Positions 16,742 to 24,716 of a stretch of DNA of 64,000 bases are shown in pieces. A program made the translations under genes and the position numbers. The notes under the pieces are model-generated. The model worked only from the letters and a program-made list of their open reading frames with translations. It ran no database searches and was not told the origin of the DNA. Every line of letters begins with the position of its first letter. Within the stretch, counting starts at the first letter, position 1. Origin of the DNA: Bradyrhizobium sp. CCBAU 53351 (lineage in GTDB: Bacteria; Pseudomonadota; Alphaproteobacteria; Rhizobiales; Xanthobacteraceae); contig NZ_CP030059.1 in assembly GCF_015291745.1 (NCBI RefSeq), positions 3,995,501-4,059,500 of the forward strand, read 5' to 3'.

Positions 16742-18978
16742 TTCCAACGCAGCGCGTCATTCTGGGTGCCGGACTTGCCATCCTCCTGATCATCACCGCG
16801 GCCTCGATCGCCCTCGACGTCAAGTCGCGGTCCGATGCGGCGTGGGTCCATCAGACCGTCCAGGTGCAGAAGAATATCTCCGATCTGCGCGTGCTGCTGC
16901 GCCGCGCCGAGAGCGCCGCGCGCGGCTTTGAGCTCTATCGCAATCCAGCCTTCAGCAGCGAATTCGACTCCGTTCACGCCCAGATCGCGCCGGCCCTCGC
17001 CGAGCTCAAGCGCAGCGTGCGCGACAACCCCGATCAGGTCGCGCTGCTGGAGGGTACCGAGCCGCTGGCGCTGCGCCGCGTCGAGATCGCCGCGACCGCG
17101 ATGCGCCTGCGCGCCGCGAACGACGAGGCCGGCATAGCCGCGCTCAACGGCAAGGCCGAGGGCCGTGGCCTGATGGACACGGTGATGGCCAATCTCGACC
17201 GTCTGAGCGCGGAGGAAGAACGTCTGCTCGCCGTGCGCTCCCAGGATTCGCGTCGCAACGGCATCGTGCTGCTCGGCATCGACGTCGCCGGCGCGATGGT
17301 GATCCTTCTGCTGGTCGTGATGGTGATGCGTGAGGGCCGACGCACGGAGGTCGCGCTCAAGAGCACGCTGATGGAGACCACAGCCGCCAAGGAAGCGCTT
17401 GCCGCGGCGGTGGCCGAGCGCACCGAGCATCTGGTCACCGCACATGACGAGCTGCGCCTGTCGGTCAACGTGCTGCAGAGCACGTTCCACAGCATGGCGG
17501 AGGCGGTGCTGGTCATCGATACCGAAGGCAATGTCCTGCTGTCCAATCCGGCCGCCGAGCGCATGCTGCTGCATCGGACCGGCATGAACCTGCGCAATCT
17601 GCGTGCGATGTCGGACGTGTTTCACGGCGACGGCGTCACGCCGATGAAGGCCGACGAGCTGCCCTCGGTGCGCGTGCTGCGCGGCGAGAAGTTCGAGGAC
17701 CTGGAGATGATCGTCCGCCCGCACAGCGGCAATCCTCCCCGCCATCTCATGGTCAGCGGCCGGCCGATGCTGGACGGACAAGGCGAGATTTCCGGCGCTG
17801 TGCTGGTCTATCACGACGCGACCATGTCGCGCGAGACCGAGCGGCAGCTGTACCAGTCGCAGAAGCTGGACGCCATCGGCAAGCTGACAGGCGGCGTCGC
17901 GCACGACTTCAACAACATGCTGACTGTGATCTCCGGCAACACCGAGACGCTGGTGGAAGGCCTGAAGCAGCAGCCCGAGCTGCAGCGCGTGGCGCGGCTG
18001 ATCGACGATGCCGCCGAGCGCTGCGCCGAGCTGATCCAGCATCTGCTCGCCTTTGCGCGCCGGCAGCCGCTGCAGCCGCGCAACGTCGAGATCAACGCCG
18101 CGATCGCCGACATCGCAAAGCTCTTGCGTCCCACCCTCGGCGAGCAGATCCAGATCGAGACAGTGCTGGAACAGGGACCGATGACCGCGCATATCGACCC
18201 GTCCCGGCTCACCAATGCCGTGCTCAACATGGCGATCAACGCGCGCGACGCCATGCCGAACGGCGGCAAGCTGCTGCTGGAGACCCACCGCGTCGTGCTG
18301 GACGAGGCCTATGTGCAGGCCCATGCGGACGTGGCGGCCGGCCCCTACATCATGCTCGCCGTCAGCGACACCGGCACCGGCATGACCATCGAGACCCAGC
18401 ACAAGGCGTTCGAGCCCTTCTTCACCACCAAGGAGGTCGGCAAGGGATCCGGCCTCGGCCTCTCCATGGTCTATGGCTTCGTCAAGCAGTCCGGAGGCCA
18501 CATCAAGATCTACAGCGAGGAAGGCCACGGCACCACGATCAAGCTCTATTTGCCGCCGGGCGAAGGCACGACGGAGATCGCCGCCGCCGCCGCGCCGCAG
18601 GCCGAAGGCGGCGCCGAGACCATCCTCGTCGTGGAGGACGACAATCTCGTGCGCAACTTCGTCACAGGGCAGCTGCAGAGTCTCGGTTACAAGACCGTGG
18701 CCGCGCCCGACGGCAAGGCCGCGCTTGACTTGATCGCGGCCGGCCAGACGTTCGACCTGCTGTTCACCGACGTCGTCATGCCCGGCGGCATGAGCGGACG
18801 CGAGCTCGCCGACGAAGTGGTCAAGCTGCGGCCGGGCGTGAAGGTGCTCTACACCTCCGGCTACACCGACAACGCCATCGTCCATCACGGCAAGCTCGAC
18901 GACGGCGTGCTGCTGCTGACCAAGCCGTACCGGAGAAACCAGCTCGCGGAGATGATCCGGAAGGCGCTGGGCCCCTAA
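16738..18978 (+). CDS. Hybrid sensor histidine kinase: CHASE3-PAS-HisKA-HATPase-REC
   Basis: The protein (746 residues from a TTG start at 16738) has an N-terminal helix, a CHASE3 periplasmic domain (RRAESAARGFELY) and a second helix (GIVLLGIDVAGAMVILLLVV). It continues with a PAS domain (about residues 255-380), HisKA with the histidine in GGVAHDFNNMLTVISGN, HATPase (NMAINARDAM, DTGTGM, GLGLSMVYG), and a C-terminal receiver (aspartate in LLFTDVVMPGGMSG). The TTG overlaps the preceding regulator stop; earlier in-frame starts would lie inside that gene. Its CHASE3 segment resembles that of the kinase at 5652-7178, so the two may sense related signals. Confidence 0.9.
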   Translation: MIPTQRVILGAGLAILLIITAASIALDVKSRSDAAWVHQTVQVQKNISDLRVLLRRAESAARGFELYRNPAFSSEFDSVHAQIAPALAELKRSVRDNPDQVALLEGTEPLALRRVEIAATAMRLRAANDEAGIAALNGKAEGRGLMDTVMANLDRLSAEEERLLAVRSQDSRRNGIVLLGIDVAGAMVILLLVVMVMREGRRTEVALKSTLMETTAAKEALAAAVAERTEHLVTAHDELRLSVNVLQSTFHSMAEAVLVIDTEGNVLLSNPAAERMLLHRTGMNLRNLRAMSDVFHGDGVTPMKADELPSVRVLRGEKFEDLEMIVRPHSGNPPRHLMVSGRPMLDGQGEISGAVLVYHDATMSRETERQLYQSQKLDAIGKLTGGVAHDFNNMLTVISGNTETLVEGLKQQPELQRVARLIDDAAERCAELIQHLLAFARRQPLQPRNVEINAAIADIAKLLRPTLGEQIQIETVLEQGPMTAHIDPSRLTNAVLNMAINARDAMPNGGKLLLETHRVVLDEAYVQAHADVAAGPYIMLAVSDTGTGMTIETQHKAFEPFFTTKEVGKGSGLGLSMVYGFVKQSGGHIKIYSEEGHGTTIKLYLPPGEGTTEIAAAAAPQAEGGAETILVVEDDNLVRNFVTGQLQSLGYKTVAAPDGKAALDLIAAGQTFDLLFTDVVMPGGMSGRELADEVVKLRPGVKVLYTSGYTDNAIVHHGKLDDGVLLLTKPYRRNQLAEMIRKALGP

Positions 18979-19871
18979 CGCGTCGCCAGCACCACCGCGG
19001 CCAGCGTGAACACCAGCGCGGCGATCTGCCCTGCCCCGAGCGGCTCGCCCAGCGCGATCGCGGAGGCGACGACGCCGATCACCGGCACCGCCATGGTGCC
19101 GATCGCTGCCACTGATGCCGGCAGCCGGGCAAGGGCCGCGAACCAGCTGACATAGGCGATGCAGAACTGCACCACCGTCGAATAAACCAGGAGCCACCAT
19201 CCGGCCGGCGTCACCTTGGACAGATGCGTGGTCTCGACCAGCAGGCCGATGATCGAGATCGGCAGGCAGCCGATGCCGATCTGCCAGGCTGCGGCCGTGA
19301 TCGGCGGCAGGTGGATCGGGTACTTCTTGGAGAACACCGTGCCGACGGCAAAGCCCAGCGCGCCGGCGAGCGCCATGACGATGCCAGGAAGCTTCTCGAC
19401 GCTGGCGGCGATGCCGTTGCCGCCCATGATCGAGGCAAGGCCGACGAAGGCCATCACCAGCCCGAGCGTACGGAGCAGCGTCGGCCGCTCGCCCAGCACC
19501 GGCCAGGCGATGATCGAGGCCCAGACCGGCATGGTGTAGGCGATCAGCGCCGCCTCGCTGGCGGGCAGCCAGAGCAGCGCCAGCCCCATCAGCACCATCC
19601 AGCCGGTGACGTTGAGCACGGCGGCGGTGAGCAGGCGCGGCCAGATCCCCGAATCCACACGCAAGCTCTGCCGGCGCAGAATCGCCAGCGCAGCGAGCAG
19701 GAGCGCGCCCAGCACCCCGGTCACGCCGCGCAGCGTCAGCGGCGGCAGCTCCGAGAGCAGGAATTTCGTGACCGGCCAATTGAAACCCCAGCCGATCGAG
19801 GTGATGGCGAGGAACATCAGGCCGGCCGGAGCGATGCGCGGTCGCGACACCGGCCTGGTCGAATCAAGCAT
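18975..19871 (-). CDS. EamA/DMT family transporter
   Basis: The 298-residue protein has ten predicted transmembrane helices in two EamA repeats. The first opens with FLAITSIGWGFNWPVTKFLLSELPPLTLRGVTG and the second has the matching GWWLLVYSTVVQFCIAYVSWF half. Such drug/metabolite transporters export amino acids or related metabolites; the substrate is not evident. The ATG at 19871 is preferred because the longer frame adds 28 residues of non-membrane sequence. Its stop codon overlaps that of the convergent hybrid kinase. No candidate partner gene is nearby. Confidence 0.9.
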   Translation of the reverse strand: MLDSTRPVSRPRIAPAGLMFLAITSIGWGFNWPVTKFLLSELPPLTLRGVTGVLGALLLAALAILRRQSLRVDSGIWPRLLTAAVLNVTGWMVLMGLALLWLPASEAALIAYTMPVWASIIAWPVLGERPTLLRTLGLVMAFVGLASIMGGNGIAASVEKLPGIVMALAGALGFAVGTVFSKKYPIHLPPITAAAWQIGIGCLPISIIGLLVETTHLSKVTPAGWWLLVYSTVVQFCIAYVSWFAALARLPASVAAIGTMAVPVIGVVASAIALGEPLGAGQIAALVFTLAAVVLATR

Positions 19872-20144
19872 TGGGGGTATCCGGCAAAATCGAGCGTCAG
19901 CTTGGCGCGGATTCGCGCAGCCCACCACCACCTCGGCGGGCATGCCTGCCCTCACCTTCCGTAGGGCTACGTGAGTCCTGCTGACGCAATCCCTTCGGCC
20001 AAAAATATACCTGCCCTGTGAACAGCGGGATGAAGCATCTGCAGCATCACCGAATGCAAATTTTTTCGGTTGGGAATCTCTGAGGACTCACTGATACTTG
20101 GGCACACAACAGGCGCGGCACCGACCCCTGTTATCCCCCACAAT
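19872..20144. other. Intergenic region upstream of the nrdJ control region
   Basis: This stretch of about 270 bases separates the EamA gene from the NrdR boxes of nrdJ. I see no credible reading frame or RNA gene; the open frames crossing it lack family features. It is slightly richer in A+T near 19995-20065. Confidence 0.5.
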
Positions 20145-20191
20145 CCACCATATTTAGTATTTGATTCAGGAACCCGCACTAGTTCTTGACG
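20145..20191 (+). promoter_or_regulatory. Tandem NrdR boxes upstream of nrdJ
   Basis: CCACCATATTTAGTAT at 20145-20160 matches the known NrdR-box consensus (acaCwAtATaTwGtgt) at most conserved positions. A second, weaker match, GCACTAGTTCTTGACG, begins exactly 31 bases later at 20176, the spacing typical of paired NrdR boxes (three helical turns). The second box overlaps the proposed -35 element, so NrdR with bound (d)ATP could repress nrdJ. NrdR itself is not in the window. Confidence 0.7.
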
Positions 20192-20214
20192 GGCGCAACG
20201 GAGAGTCCTAGCTT
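20186..20214 (+). promoter_or_regulatory. Candidate sigma70 promoter of nrdJ
   Basis: TTGACG at 20186 and TAGCTT at 20209 are separated by 17 bases, a good housekeeping promoter for alphaproteobacteria. It predicts a transcript start near 20221 and a 5' untranslated region of about 450 bases. Confidence 0.6.
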
Positions 20215-20216
20215 TC

Positions 20217-20668
20217 GGTCCGTTCGGCGCGAGTGAGTTTGCGTCCCGCCGGCACTCCCCTAAAGGGTCTCGCAAATCTTCACCTCCGTCGGCCAGCCAA
20301 AGGCAGCGGATGAGGGCTTGTCTGCCCGCGAAAGGCAGACTCTTCGGGCGCCGAACGGGCCGACAACAGGCTCGGATGGCAGATTTCACGCTGGTGCAAA
20401 CCGGCACCTGCGTGAAGTGAGAGACGTTGTGACGGTGGGGCGTTGAACGCGTGTCGGGCTCATCCCCTTGGGGGCGGATGGGCCTGGGCATGCCGGCGGG
20501 TGATCGGTGCGCGCATCGAACCACCGCGTCGGGAGAACAAGGGCCGGGTCCACCGGCTGAACTGCGGTTGCCAAAGGCCGAACGGGCCGAAGGCGCCGCG
20601 AAACGAAATGTCGACCGGCAGGCCTGAACGGAGGCTGGACCGGTCAAACTTAAGGACGGGGCAAGACG
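20217..20668 (+). promoter_or_regulatory. Long structured mRNA leader of nrdJ with two competing pairings
   Basis: The leader contains many strong stems. A long-range helix joins 20217-20230 to 20348-20361 (14 pairs, one G-U). Inside it are GTGA/TTTGCG arms at 20233-20243 pairing with 20271-20283, and the perfect hairpin GTCTGCC/GGCAGAC at 20320-20340. Further hairpins are at 20385-20416 (seven plus five pairs around a T-T mismatch), 20458-20483, 20543-20557 and 20613-20645. The last ends six bases before the AAGGACGGGG ribosome site. The sequence GCCGAACGGGCCGA occurs twice (20350-20363 and 20577-20590), and both copies complement 20215-20228, so two alternative folds are possible. No cobalamin-riboswitch B12 box is present. 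Confidence 0.7.
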
Positions 20669-23600
20669 ATGCGGATTGAGCGGCGCCACACCACGGTAGG
20701 ACAGTCACCTTACGCCGGGATCGATTTCCGGCTGACCACGTCGGAGATCAGGAATCCCGACGGCTCGGTCGTGTTCAAATTGGACGGCGTCGAGGTCCCG
20801 ACCGAGTGGTCGCAGGTCGCCTCCGACGTGCTCGCCCAGAAGTATTTCCGCAAAGCGGGCGTTGCCGCGCTCCTGAAGAAGGTCGAGGAGGAATCCGTCC
20901 CCTCCTTCCTGTGGCGTTCCGTGCCCGACACCGACGCCCTCGCAGCCCTGCCCGAGAAAGAGCGCTATGTCAGCGAGCTCTCGGCCAAGCAGGTGTTCGA
21001 CCGCCTCGCCGGCTGCTGGACCTATTGGGGTTGGAAGGGCAAGTATTTCTCGACCGACGAGGACGCCCAGGCCTTCTACGACGAGCTGCGCTACATGCTC
21101 GCGATGCAGATGGTCGCGCCGAACTCGCCGCAATGGTTCAACACCGGCCTGCACTGGGCCTATGGCATCGACGGCCCCGGCCAGGGCCATTATTACGTCG
21201 ACCCCTTCACTGGCAAGCTGACCAAGTCCAAGTCGGCCTATGAGCACCCGCAGCCGCACGCCTGCTTCATCCAGGGCGTTGGTGACGACCTCGTCAACGA
21301 AGGCGGCATCATGGACCTCTGGGTCCGCGAGGCCCGCCTGTTCAAATACGGCTCCGGCACCGGCTCCAACTTCTCCCGCCTGCGCGGCGAAGGCGAAAAG
21401 CTCTCCGGCGGCGGCCGGTCGAGCGGCCTGATGAGCTTCCTCAAGATCGGCGACCGCGCCGCGGGCGCGATCAAGTCGGGCGGCACCACGCGCCGCGCCG
21501 CCAAGATGGTCGTCGTCGACGTCGACCACCCCGACATCGAAACCTATATCGACTGGAAGGTGAAGGAGGAGCAGAAGGTCGCCGCCCTCGTCACGGGATC
21601 CAAGATCAACCAGAAGCACCTCAAGGCGGTGCTGAAGGCCTGCGTCAACTGCGAAGGCTCGGGCGACGATTGCTTCGACCCCGAGAAGAACCCGGCGCTC
21701 CGCCGCGAGATCAAGCTCGCGCGCCGCAGCCTCGTGCCTGACAATTACATCAAGCGCGTCATCCAGTTTGCCAAGCAGGGCTACAAGGACATCGCGTTCG
21801 ACACCTACGACACCGACTGGGACAGCGAAGCCTATCTCACGGTCTCCGGCCAGAATTCCAACAACTCGGTCTCGCTGAAGGACGACTTCCTGCGCGCGGT
21901 CGAGACCGACGGCGACTGGAATCTGAACGCCCGCACCTCCAAGAAGGTGACGAAGACGCTGAAGGCGCGCGACCTCTGGGAGAAGATCGGCTACGCCGCC
22001 TGGGCCTCGGCCGACCCGGGCCTGCACTTCAACACCACCATGAACGACTGGCACACCTGCAAGGCGTCCGGCGACATCCGCGCGTCGAACCCGTGCTCGG
22101 AATACATGTTCCTGGACGACACCGCCTGCAACCTCGCCTCGGCCAACCTGCTGACCTTCTACAACACCGAGACCAAGCGCTTCGACGTCGAGAGCTATGA
22201 GCATCTCTGCCGGCTCTGGACCATCGTGCTCGAAATCTCGGTGATGATGGCGCAATTCCCGTCGAAGGCGATCGCCGAGCTCTCCTACGAGTTCCGCACG
22301 CTCGGCCTCGGCTACGCCAATATCGGCGGCCTCCTGATGACCATGGGCCTGCCCTATGACTCTAAGGAAGGCCGTGCGATCGCCGGCGCGCTGACCGCCG
22401 TGATGACCGGCATCACCTACAAGACCTCGGCCGAAATGGCGGCCGAGCTCGGCACCTTCCCCGGCTACAAGAAGAACGCCGCGCACATGCTGCGCGTCAT
22501 CCGCAACCACCGCCGCGCCGCGCACGGCCAGTCCAACGGCTATGAGGCGCTGTCCGTCAACCCGGTGCCGATGGACCTCGTCTCCTGCCCGCAGGCTGAC
22601 CTCGTCAGCCACGCGCAGGCGGCCTGGGATGCGGCGCTCGAGCTCGGCGAGCAGCACGGCTATCGCAACGCCCAGACCACGGTGATCGCGCCCACCGGCA
22701 CGATCGGCCTCGTCATGGATTGCGATACGACGGGCATCGAACCGGACTTCGCCCTTGTAAAATTCAAGAAGCTCGCCGGCGGCGGCTACTTCAAGATCAT
22801 CAACCGCGCGGTTCCCGCGGCGCTGCGCGCGCTCGGCTATCGCGAAGCTGATATCGCGGAGATCGAGGCCTACGCCGTCGGCCACGGCTCGCTCTCCAAC
22901 GCGCCCGGCATCAACGCCTCGACCCTCAAGGCCAAGGGCTTCACCGATGAAGCCATCGCCAAGGTCGAGAAGGCGCTGCCGACCGCCTTCGACATCAAGT
23001 TCGCCTTCAACAAGTGGACCTTTGGCGAGGATTTCATCCGCGACCAGCTCGGCATCGGCGCCGAAGCCATTGCGGCTCCGGGCTTCGACCTCCTCCAGGC
23101 CGTCGGCTTCACCAAGCGCGAGATCGAGGCGGCCAACGTCCACATCTGCGGCGCGATGACGGTGGAAGGTGCTCCGCACCTCAAGGCCGAGCACTATCCG
23201 GTGTTCGACTGCGCCAATCCCTGCGGCAAGATCGGCAAGCGCTATCTGTCGGTCGAGAGCCACATCCGCATGATGGCAGCTAGCCAGCCCTTCATCTCGG
23301 GTGCGATCTCCAAGACCATCAACATGCCGAACGACGCCACGGTGGAGGACTGCAAGTCCGCCTACATGCTGTCGTGGAAGCTCGCGCTGAAGGCCAACGC
23401 GCTCTATCGCGACGGCTCCAAGCTCTCCCAGCCGCTCAACTCGCAGCTCATCAGCGACGACGAGGACGAGGACGATGCGGTCGAGAGCCTCTACGAGAAG
23501 CCGATGGCGGCGCGTGCCACGCAGGTCTCGGAGAAGATCGTCGAGAAGCTGGTCGAGCGCATCATCGTGATGCGCGAGCGCGAGAAGATGCCTGACCGAC

Positions 23601-24439
23601 GCAAGGGCTACACCCAGAAGGCGGTCGTCGGCGGCCACAAGGTCTACCTGCGCACCGGCGAATATGACGACGGCCGTCTCGGCGAGATCTTCATCGACAT
23701 GCACAAGGAAGGCGCCGCGCTCCGCTCCTTCATCAACAATTTTGCGATCGCGGTCTCCCTCGGTCTGCAATATGGCGTGCCGCTCGATGAATACGTCGAT
23801 GCCTTCACCTTCACCCGCTTCGAGCCGGCGGGCCCCGTGCAGGGCAACGACAGCATCAAGTACGCAACCTCGATCCTCGACTACGTCTTCCGCGAGCTCG
23901 CGGTGAGCTACATGTCGCGCTTCGACCTCGCCCATGTCGATCCCAACGAGACCGGCTTCGACGCGCTCGGCAAGGGCGTCGAGGAAGGCAAGGAGCCGGA
24001 CGAGGACGGCGGCCACCACGCCACCCGCCTGGTCTCGCGCGGCCTCACCCGCTCCCGGACCGACAACCTCGTCGTGATGCGCGGCGGCAGCGCCGCAGTC
24101 ACCCAGGGCAACGACAGCGCGCCCTCAGGCGGCAGCAAGGTCACGGCGATGGCGGCCCACGCCACCAGCGCCCGTGTCGGCGATGCCCTCGAAGGCGCCG
24201 TCGCCCTGAAGCAGGAAGTCCAGCACGACCTCTCGCCGACGGAGAAGCTGGAAGCCCTGCAATGGAGCAAGGCCGGCAGCGCCGCCACCGCCGTCCCCAG
24301 CAAGGCCGAGCGCCGCGCGGAGGCCAAGGCCAAGGGCTACGAGGGCGAGATGTGCTCGGAGTGCGGCAACTTCACGCTGGTTCGGAATGGCACATGCATG
24401 AAGTGCGATACTTGCGGCAGCACGACGGGGTGTAGCTGA
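20669..24439 (+). CDS. nrdJ: Vitamin B12-dependent (class II) ribonucleoside-diphosphate reductase
   Basis: The 1256-residue enzyme reduces ribonucleotides using adenosylcobalamin as radical source, so DNA precursors can be made with or without oxygen. Active-site landmarks are the cysteine in [10 protein letters not shown], the radical-site triad N-x-C-x-E in NPCSEYMF at about residue 475, and the partner cysteine in [11 protein letters not shown]. The extended C-terminal region ends in a zinc/redox cysteine cluster ([21 protein letters not shown], then GSTTGCS) that re-reduces the active site. The length matches the large proteobacterial NrdJ form. The NrdR boxes, promoter and long leader upstream indicate layered control. 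Confidence 0.97.
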
Positions 24440-24470
24440 TATCAACAGCGCAAGCCGCCCGGAGGCACCG

Positions 24471-24716
24471 ATGCCGGTTGCATTACGCCAGGGCGGCTTG
24501 CGCTACTATTTCTTCTCGAACGAAGGGCAGCCGCCCGAGCCGCCCCACGTCCATGTCAAAGGCGGCGGCAAGGACGCCAAGATCTGGCTCGAACCCGCCA
24601 TCTCCATTGCGGACAGTTACGGCTTTAATCCGCGGGAACTTTCGAATATCCTGCGCGTCGTCGAAGACAACCGCGATCTTCTCCTGAAGGCCTGGCATGA
24701 CCATTTCGGCAACTAG
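24471..24716 (+). CDS. DUF4160 domain protein
   Basis: The 81-residue protein carries the DUF4160 pattern: FFSNEGQPPEPPHVHVKGGGKDAKIWLEP, then a helix with NPRELSNILRVVEDN and a C-terminal LLKAWHDHFG. A CGGAGG ribosome site precedes the start. It overlaps the next gene by 20 bases. DUF4160 and DUF2442 genes are frequently paired and the pairs travel with mobile or accessory regions. A toxin-antitoxin-like role has been a natural guess, but nothing in the sequence proves it. Confidence 0.85.
   Translation: MPVALRQGGLRYYFFSNEGQPPEPPHVHVKGGGKDAKIWLEPAISIADSYGFNPRELSNILRVVEDNRDLLLKAWHDHFGN

Follow-up and report, generated by a model that had tools for sequence, protein, structure and literature searches.

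The window, that is, the whole 64 kb stretch of Bradyrhizobium sp. CCBAU 53351 DNA analyzed here, contains the nrdJ gene preceded by a promoter with NrdR-like boxes and by a long leader (Table 1). The nrdJ product is presumably a class II ribonucleotide reductase, as it was named in the original prediction. Ribonucleotide reductase determines how many DNA building blocks are supplied, and the class II enzyme encoded by nrdJ requires adenosylcobalamin. In a domain search of the strain's own genome, PF02867 was found in nrdJ only and PF13597 was absent; nrdJ is the only ribonucleotide reductase gene found in the genome. A conserved RNA on this sole gene would thus let the supply of nucleotides or cofactor govern DNA synthesis via translation.

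Table 1. Features of the nrdJ locus (positions are those of the window).
Feature	Positions	Strand	Basis or remark
NrdR-like box 1 (CCACCATATTTAGTAT)	20145..20160	+	Conserved in alignments; resembles the NrdR consensus
NrdR-like box 2 (GCACTAGTTCTTGACG)	20176..20191	+	31 bp from box 1, overlaps -35; resembles the NrdR consensus
-35 hexamer TTGACG	20186..20191	+	Conserved spacing to -10-like hexamer
-10-like hexamer TAGCTT	20209..20214	+	17 from TTGACG
HP-I, hairpin at predicted 5' end	20222..20254	+	Swap test
Putative pseudoknot, HP-I loop 20231-20243 with 20271-20286	20231..20286	+	UUGCG/CGCAA and GAGUG/CACCUC
HP-II (CCC/GGG)	20258..20267	+	89.2% of cells paired
HP-III	20285..20310	+	94.9% of outer cells paired
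HP-IV (GGGC/GCCC)	20314..20327	+	Swap test
GUCUGCCC, candidate anti-ribosome-site strand	20320..20327	+	Best mean partner of ribosome-site region
First copy of GCCGAACGGGCCGA	20350..20363	+	Its CGGGCC doubles as 5' arm of P5
P5, local hairpin CGGGCC/GGCTCG	20356..20374	+	Cells paired, swap test, compensatory events
Insert of about 35 nt resembling nrdJ 3' end	20385..20419	+	28/35 bases as at 24371-24405
Conserved box GGGGCGUUGA	20437..20446	+	Alignments
Variable hairpin	20450..20492	+	Swap z -5.95
Variable hairpin	20493..20532	+	Swap z -6.78
HP-V (GCCGG/CCGGC)	20543..20557	+	Swap z -3.0, p 0.0014
Helix VI, variable tip	20564..20599	+	Swap z -4.7; blind scan t -6.1
Second copy of GCCGAACGGGCCGA	20577..20590	+	In variable tip of helix VI; not conserved
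HP-VII, terminal hairpin	20613..20645	+	Swap z -6.8; blind scan t -6.7
Conserved ribosome-site region ACGGGGCAAGAC	20656..20667	+	Alignments
nrdJ, adenosylcobalamin-dependent (class II) ribonucleotide reductase	20669..24439	+	ORF and PF02867 match

The promoter box lay at most 620 nt from the start in 86 of the 100 loci taken first; together with 80 named nrdJ loci these 86 gave 166 leaders, 142 of which were unique. The named loci comprised 68 Bradyrhizobium (by title), the others being assigned to Rhodopseudomonas, Nitrobacter, Afipia, and Tardiphaga, with four loosely or oddly named. Four outliers (L064, L079, L082, and L098) were dropped before the 138-row alignment. The leader length, from the predicted transcription start to the start codon, varied from 294 to 465 nt with a median of 411 nt (137 leaders); among 41 divergent leaders the range was 292 to 449 nt. 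In the alignments, the leader is bordered by the conserved promoter on its 5' side and by ACGGGGCA immediately before the start codon. No consistent small ORF was found in the 41 leaders, the longest ORFs varying in position and length; the leader lengths modulo 3 were distributed as 12, 14, and 15, with no conserved reading frame, which does not fit a leader peptide or an upstream ORF.

Both promoter boxes were assigned to NrdR by eye, from their likeness to the NrdR consensus. Two such boxes at this distance over the -35 hexamer would make this a candidate NrdR-controlled promoter; NrdR acts on transcription, and a leader RNA would add a layer. A TA(G/A)..(T/C) hexamer follows the -35 hexamer at a spacer of 17 or 18 in 137 of the 138 leaders. 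A generic sigma-70 promoter scan reported no promoter at TTGACG/TAGCTT. From the conserved -35/-10 pair we infer a transcription start near 20221, which is the first base of HP-I. The two NrdR-like boxes are separated by a GATTC (GANTC) site at 20163-20167 that 128/138 leaders retain; further GANTC sites of the window lie nearby at 20074, 20085, 20203, and 20338, GANTC being the CcrM methylation motif. Conserved blocks CCTGTGAACAGCGGG and GAGGACTCACTGATACTTG were also observed upstream of the promoter, at about 20015-20105. At locus L233 (G015:C1:5336500-5340300), the nrdJ promoter block occurs a second time, complete with its two NrdR-like boxes; this copy is remote from nrdJ, lacks the leader, and is followed by ORFs.

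A DNA query covering 20090-20668 found matches in 39 of the 60 genomes searched. These were the window's own, every one of its 35 congeners, and three more distant ones, in which the match was a short stretch resembling the nrdJ 3' end. Within the genus, some matches took in the entire query and others no more than its first ~180 bases (promoter and leader start). The nrdJ gene itself was detected by protein search in 232/248 genomes of the family. A covariance model of the 5' third of the leader (R1, 119 positions), for which 53 of the 56 non-redundant candidates were used, gave 140 matches in 139/248 family genomes and 29/47 genera (E <= 0.001), and 138 of the 139 matched genomes carry a single match. 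The other 109 family genomes had no R1 match under these strict filters, which lose weak matches. Among the matches listed with an nrdJ position, 106/107 were located directly upstream of the gene and in its orientation, at a median distance of 229 nt, the exception being a decayed second copy in G238; of the remaining 33, the two inspected (G085 and G247) both lie upstream of an nrdJ start. The decayed copy (L235, G238:C1:926000-929200; R1 E 7.7e-6) consists of an nrdJ promoter and 5' leader domain situated away from nrdJ.

Of the family loci fetched, 58/70 matched R1 at E < 1e-7; since 34 of these 70 had served to build the model, the held-out match rate is 24/36. All 80 named nrdJ loci matched, 68 of them being Bradyrhizobium and many near the members of R1. 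Over the order, R1 matched 12/297 genomes, namely ten within the family, one in another family (G380, upstream of nrdJ), and one by chance; the chance match (L112) falls in an apparent coding sequence, and no nrdJ start was found in its locus. When R1 was run on 60 upstream loci with E up to 10, one of the 41 loci from other families (L111) scored below 0.001 and another (L114) reached 0.005. Plasmids gave no R1 match, and the next R1 match in the window's own genome had an E value of 0.11. A long element at a fixed place, with one match per genome, makes a clear, testable orphan regulatory RNA of soil and symbiotic bacteria.

Base pairing was evaluated by swap tests, in which the partner strand from the same leader was compared with that from another divergent leader, using 41 representatives of the 138 leaders (<80% identity) or 31 of 58 model-aligned rows. 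Negative controls gave z values of -0.2 and +1.1 (41 representatives) and +0.2 and +2.2 (31 representatives). These tests, which only partly remove relatedness, favour the putative helices HP-VII, P5, helix VI, HP-V, and HP-IV, the two variable hairpins, and the pseudoknot. In tree-based counts of compensatory events, the slid controls were exceeded by P5 and the pseudoknot. When 4095 tile pairs were scanned blind, HP-VII and helix VI took the five highest ranks and P5 came next (-3.77). Values of the wrong sign reached t +3.9, so that the top five pairs alone, those of HP-VII and helix VI, are clear of noise. A G-test applied column by column against a tree-based null yielded no pair at E < 0.05, and the pairs that it ranked highest tracked clades rather than base pairing. 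RNAalifold kept 5 pairs on alignment A1, in which 12 pairs changed on both sides compared with 9.0 in shuffles (matched by 41/500). The leader of this one gene thus shows conserved secondary structure, a general mark of riboswitches, with the column-wise test speaking against it. The claim that nrdJ has a structured leader RNA is borne out by data on its conservation, its location, and several covarying helices.

For P5, 345/348 cells were paired in close leaders and 369/454 in distant ones. Its swap test gave z -6.2, and z -5.2 with the 41 representatives; 13 compensatory events were counted against 0-1 in slid controls, ten of the 13 at the single pair 20358/20372. HP-VII kept its swap support among close relatives (z -4.2), with 2 compensatory events against 0-1 slid. 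Helix VI gave z +0.4 among close relatives and no compensatory events on MAFFT columns.

In the 5' domain, the window pairs of HP-I are 20224-20226/20250-20252 and 20229-20231/20247-20249; the swap test favoured them when the alignment was model-based (z -2.18, p 0.016) but not when it was made with MAFFT (z +0.5). For the pseudoknot, z was -1.6 (p 0.051) with 41 representatives, and p was 0.006 with 31 representatives on the alignment made by R1, a model which itself holds no pseudoknot; values of z -3.69 and p 0.0003 were reached once the strands had been widened after the p 0.006 output was seen. Its UUGCG/CGCAA part had 6 compensatory events compared with 0-2 slid. HP-IV gave z -2.8, z -2.95 (p 0.0023), and p 0.069 on the model-based alignment. 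For HP-III, p was 0.047 on the model-based alignment and, with 41 representatives, 0.20 for the outer and 0.60 for the inner part, with 1 compensatory event against 0-4 slid; the HP-II swap test gave no support (p 0.31). The minimum-energy fold of the window (20221-20690) contradicts this arrangement, pairing the 5' strand with the second copy of GCCGAACGGGCCGA and GUCUGCC with GGCAGAC at 20334-20340. The latter hairpin, strong in the window, lacks support in the family (z +0.75).

The region of the ribosome site has its best mean partner at 20314-20337 (-12.8 kcal/mol in 40 leaders, compared with a median of -7.6 and -11.7 for the next separate place). The GUCUGCCC stretch could pair with it at -6.5 to -17.8 kcal/mol in 41/41 representatives. 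Other strands come near these energies (-11.7, and in another comparison -10.7 against -11.3), and GGGG-rich sites were also found upstream of nrdJ in loci of other families. Covariation between GUCUGCCC and the ribosome site was absent (swap z +1.2 to +1.5), and it is sequence conservation that points to this putative pairing. In the covarying HP-IV, the GCCC of this strand has GGGC as its partner, which suggests a gate. Since all 41 divergent leaders can pair the site with GUCUGCCC, which also belongs to HP-IV, translational control by a riboswitch-like leader is favoured; and since a scan detected no terminator-like site on the + strand, translation is favoured over attenuation. The original prediction is partly supported, in that the leader has conserved structure and could act on translation.

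Taken as a whole, these results are best read as a conserved cis-acting RNA in the nrdJ leader, extending from an NrdR-type promoter to the start codon and most likely controlling translation via the GUCUGCCC gate (probability of about 0.55). The transcript would start at ~20221 and run to the nrdJ start codon; the 5' third would form hairpins that an H-type pseudoknot links together, and the 3' third would form a string of hairpins (HP-V, VI, and VII) ending at the ribosome site. We infer that translation is controlled by alternative pairing: with the 5' domain folded, HP-IV would occupy GUCUGCCC and leave the ribosome site free, while with the 5' domain open, GUCUGCCC could pair with GGGGCAAGAC (20658-20667) and initiation would be blocked. 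The signal would probably be a small molecule of ribonucleotide reduction, and nucleotides and adenosylcobalamin are both natural candidates.

The leader appears to be a regulatory RNA of a known kind (a conserved leader and candidate riboswitch), of which it seems to be a new member. The comparison with Rfam proposed in the original prediction returned no fitting family (cmscan, 4227 families, the window region and 10 relatives). Four chance-level hits (E 0.6-7) were obtained in 18000-24500, none of them within the leader; the 10 relatives gave four hits under the gathering scores, of which RF02599 (E 0.68, L063) lies within the leader and looks like chance. In L060 (2788-2951, - strand), a stretch upstream of the nrdJ leader resembled RF02600 (Brucella sRNA CI27) with 33.3 bits, the gathering score being 59.8. 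No description of the leader was found in the literature searched, a 2017 survey of 224 candidate RNAs lying outside that search; an RNA motif named after nrdJ may have been described. In a published start-site map of Bradyrhizobium japonicum, a maximum 5' leader of 200 nt was applied, except before predicted riboswitches (PMC4842269), which may explain why a leader of such length went unnoted in that source.

Known leaders offer partial parallels. The 2'-deoxyguanosine riboswitch of Mesoplasma florum, described as a guanine-riboswitch variant acting by transcription termination, likewise precedes a ribonucleotide reductase gene and follows a nucleotide-pool logic (PMC12268651). In contrast, the nrdJ leader has a length of about 290-465 nt, a proposed pseudoknot, no terminator-like site on the + strand, and no Rfam match; the 2'-dG and purine riboswitch models found no match in the window region and 10 relatives (cmscan). 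The serC and speF elements are conserved leaders in the same class, the alpha-proteobacteria; the serC element was proposed to hide the ribosome site, and the tests reported gave no ligand (PMC1273637). These elements belong to other genes, and RF00517 and RF00518 were unmatched in the window region and 10 relatives. A new riboswitch class, with a pseudoknotted 5' sensor of a nucleotide or adenosylcobalamin gating translation of the only ribonucleotide reductase, is a narrower proposal that we put forward tentatively. If true, it would place an RNA layer atop NrdR control in many genera of one alphaproteobacterial family and in at least one neighbouring family.

Instead of sensing a metabolite, the leader might be a protein-binding, stability, or thermal element. 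Conserved boxes without a clear partner, such as GGGGCGUUGA, for which a partner scan over the leaders gave none, could be protein sites; the size, the pseudoknot, and the conserved unpaired boxes nevertheless resemble metabolite-sensing leaders, and we regard this alternative as rather doubtful.

Two further alternatives descend from the original prediction, which was built on TCGGTCCGTTCGGC (20215-20228). This strand is indeed complementary, with one G-U, to GCCGAACGGGCCGA, and the latter does occur exactly twice in the 64 kb window. The helix with the first copy (helix 1) was retained in close relatives (>=70% identical, window included), at least 12 of 14 pairs being formed in 55/58 close and 0/80 more distant leaders and 775/809 cells being paired in the close ones; clear covariation was absent. 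In a modified form of the switch, the first ten bases of the transcript would pair either with the 3' arm of HP-I, in the pseudoknotted state, or with GCGCCnnAACG at 20348-20357 as a closing helix, so that one strand is needed by both partners. Each pair in the inner part of helix 1 (20221-20230 with 20348-20357) is standard in between 62 and 132 of at most 138 leaders, and the whole helix is kept among close leaders as stated. This modified form is nonetheless unlikely: swap tests gave z -1.4 to -1.6 (p 0.06-0.08; z -1.6 and p 0.06 without the window) and z -0.9 among close relatives, and 115 breaking events accompanied the 12 compensatory ones (slid controls 48-69 and 4-7, respectively). Helix 1 also competes with HP-I and the pseudoknot and with P5, which have better support.

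An unrecognised cobalamin riboswitch (RF00174) is linked to nrdJ through the adenosylcobalamin that the enzyme is established to need, and the genome carries four matches to this family. It is very improbable here, as 0/4 of these matches lie at nrdJ and the leader has none. The cobalamin box was already said to be absent in the original prediction, and no cobalamin-family match appeared in 18000-24500 (E up to 10) or in the 10 relatives (E up to 3).

The switch as first drawn, with 20215-20228 choosing the first or the second copy of GCCGAACGGGCCGA and so opening or closing the leader, finds an exact repeat and complementarity in this genome, minimum-energy folds of the window that use the second copy, and a swap test of 20213-20230 with 20572-20598 that was mildly positive both when the window was included (p 0.009) and when it was left out (z -2.1 and p 0.021). 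The stretch 20572-20598 also includes the 3' arm of helix VI. Relatives do not keep both partners: allowing two mismatches, GCCGAACGGGCCGA occurred twice in one of the 142 unique leaders (the window), once in 10, and not at all in 131, and at least 12 of 14 pairs with the second copy were reached by 5/58 close and 0/80 distant leaders. The swap test among close relatives gave z +1.8, compensatory events numbered 7 against 0-9 slid, and, as had been cautioned, the conserved -35/-10 pair probably leaves the outer six of the 14 bases upstream of the transcript. Because the second copy is a peculiarity of this genome and falls within helix VI's variable tip, where aligned relatives have hairpin tips of differing sequence and length, the two-partner switch is unsupported and can hardly be credited.

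The hairpin at 20385-20416, said to be disturbed by that switch, sits in the ~35 nt insert, which was found in 2/142 leaders (<=9 mismatches, ungapped). The likeness of the insert is to the codons of the Cys-rich C-terminus of nrdJ, and a two-sequence BLAST aligned its surroundings at 74% across 58 nt. L188 (B. manausense) carries a related insert at the same place.
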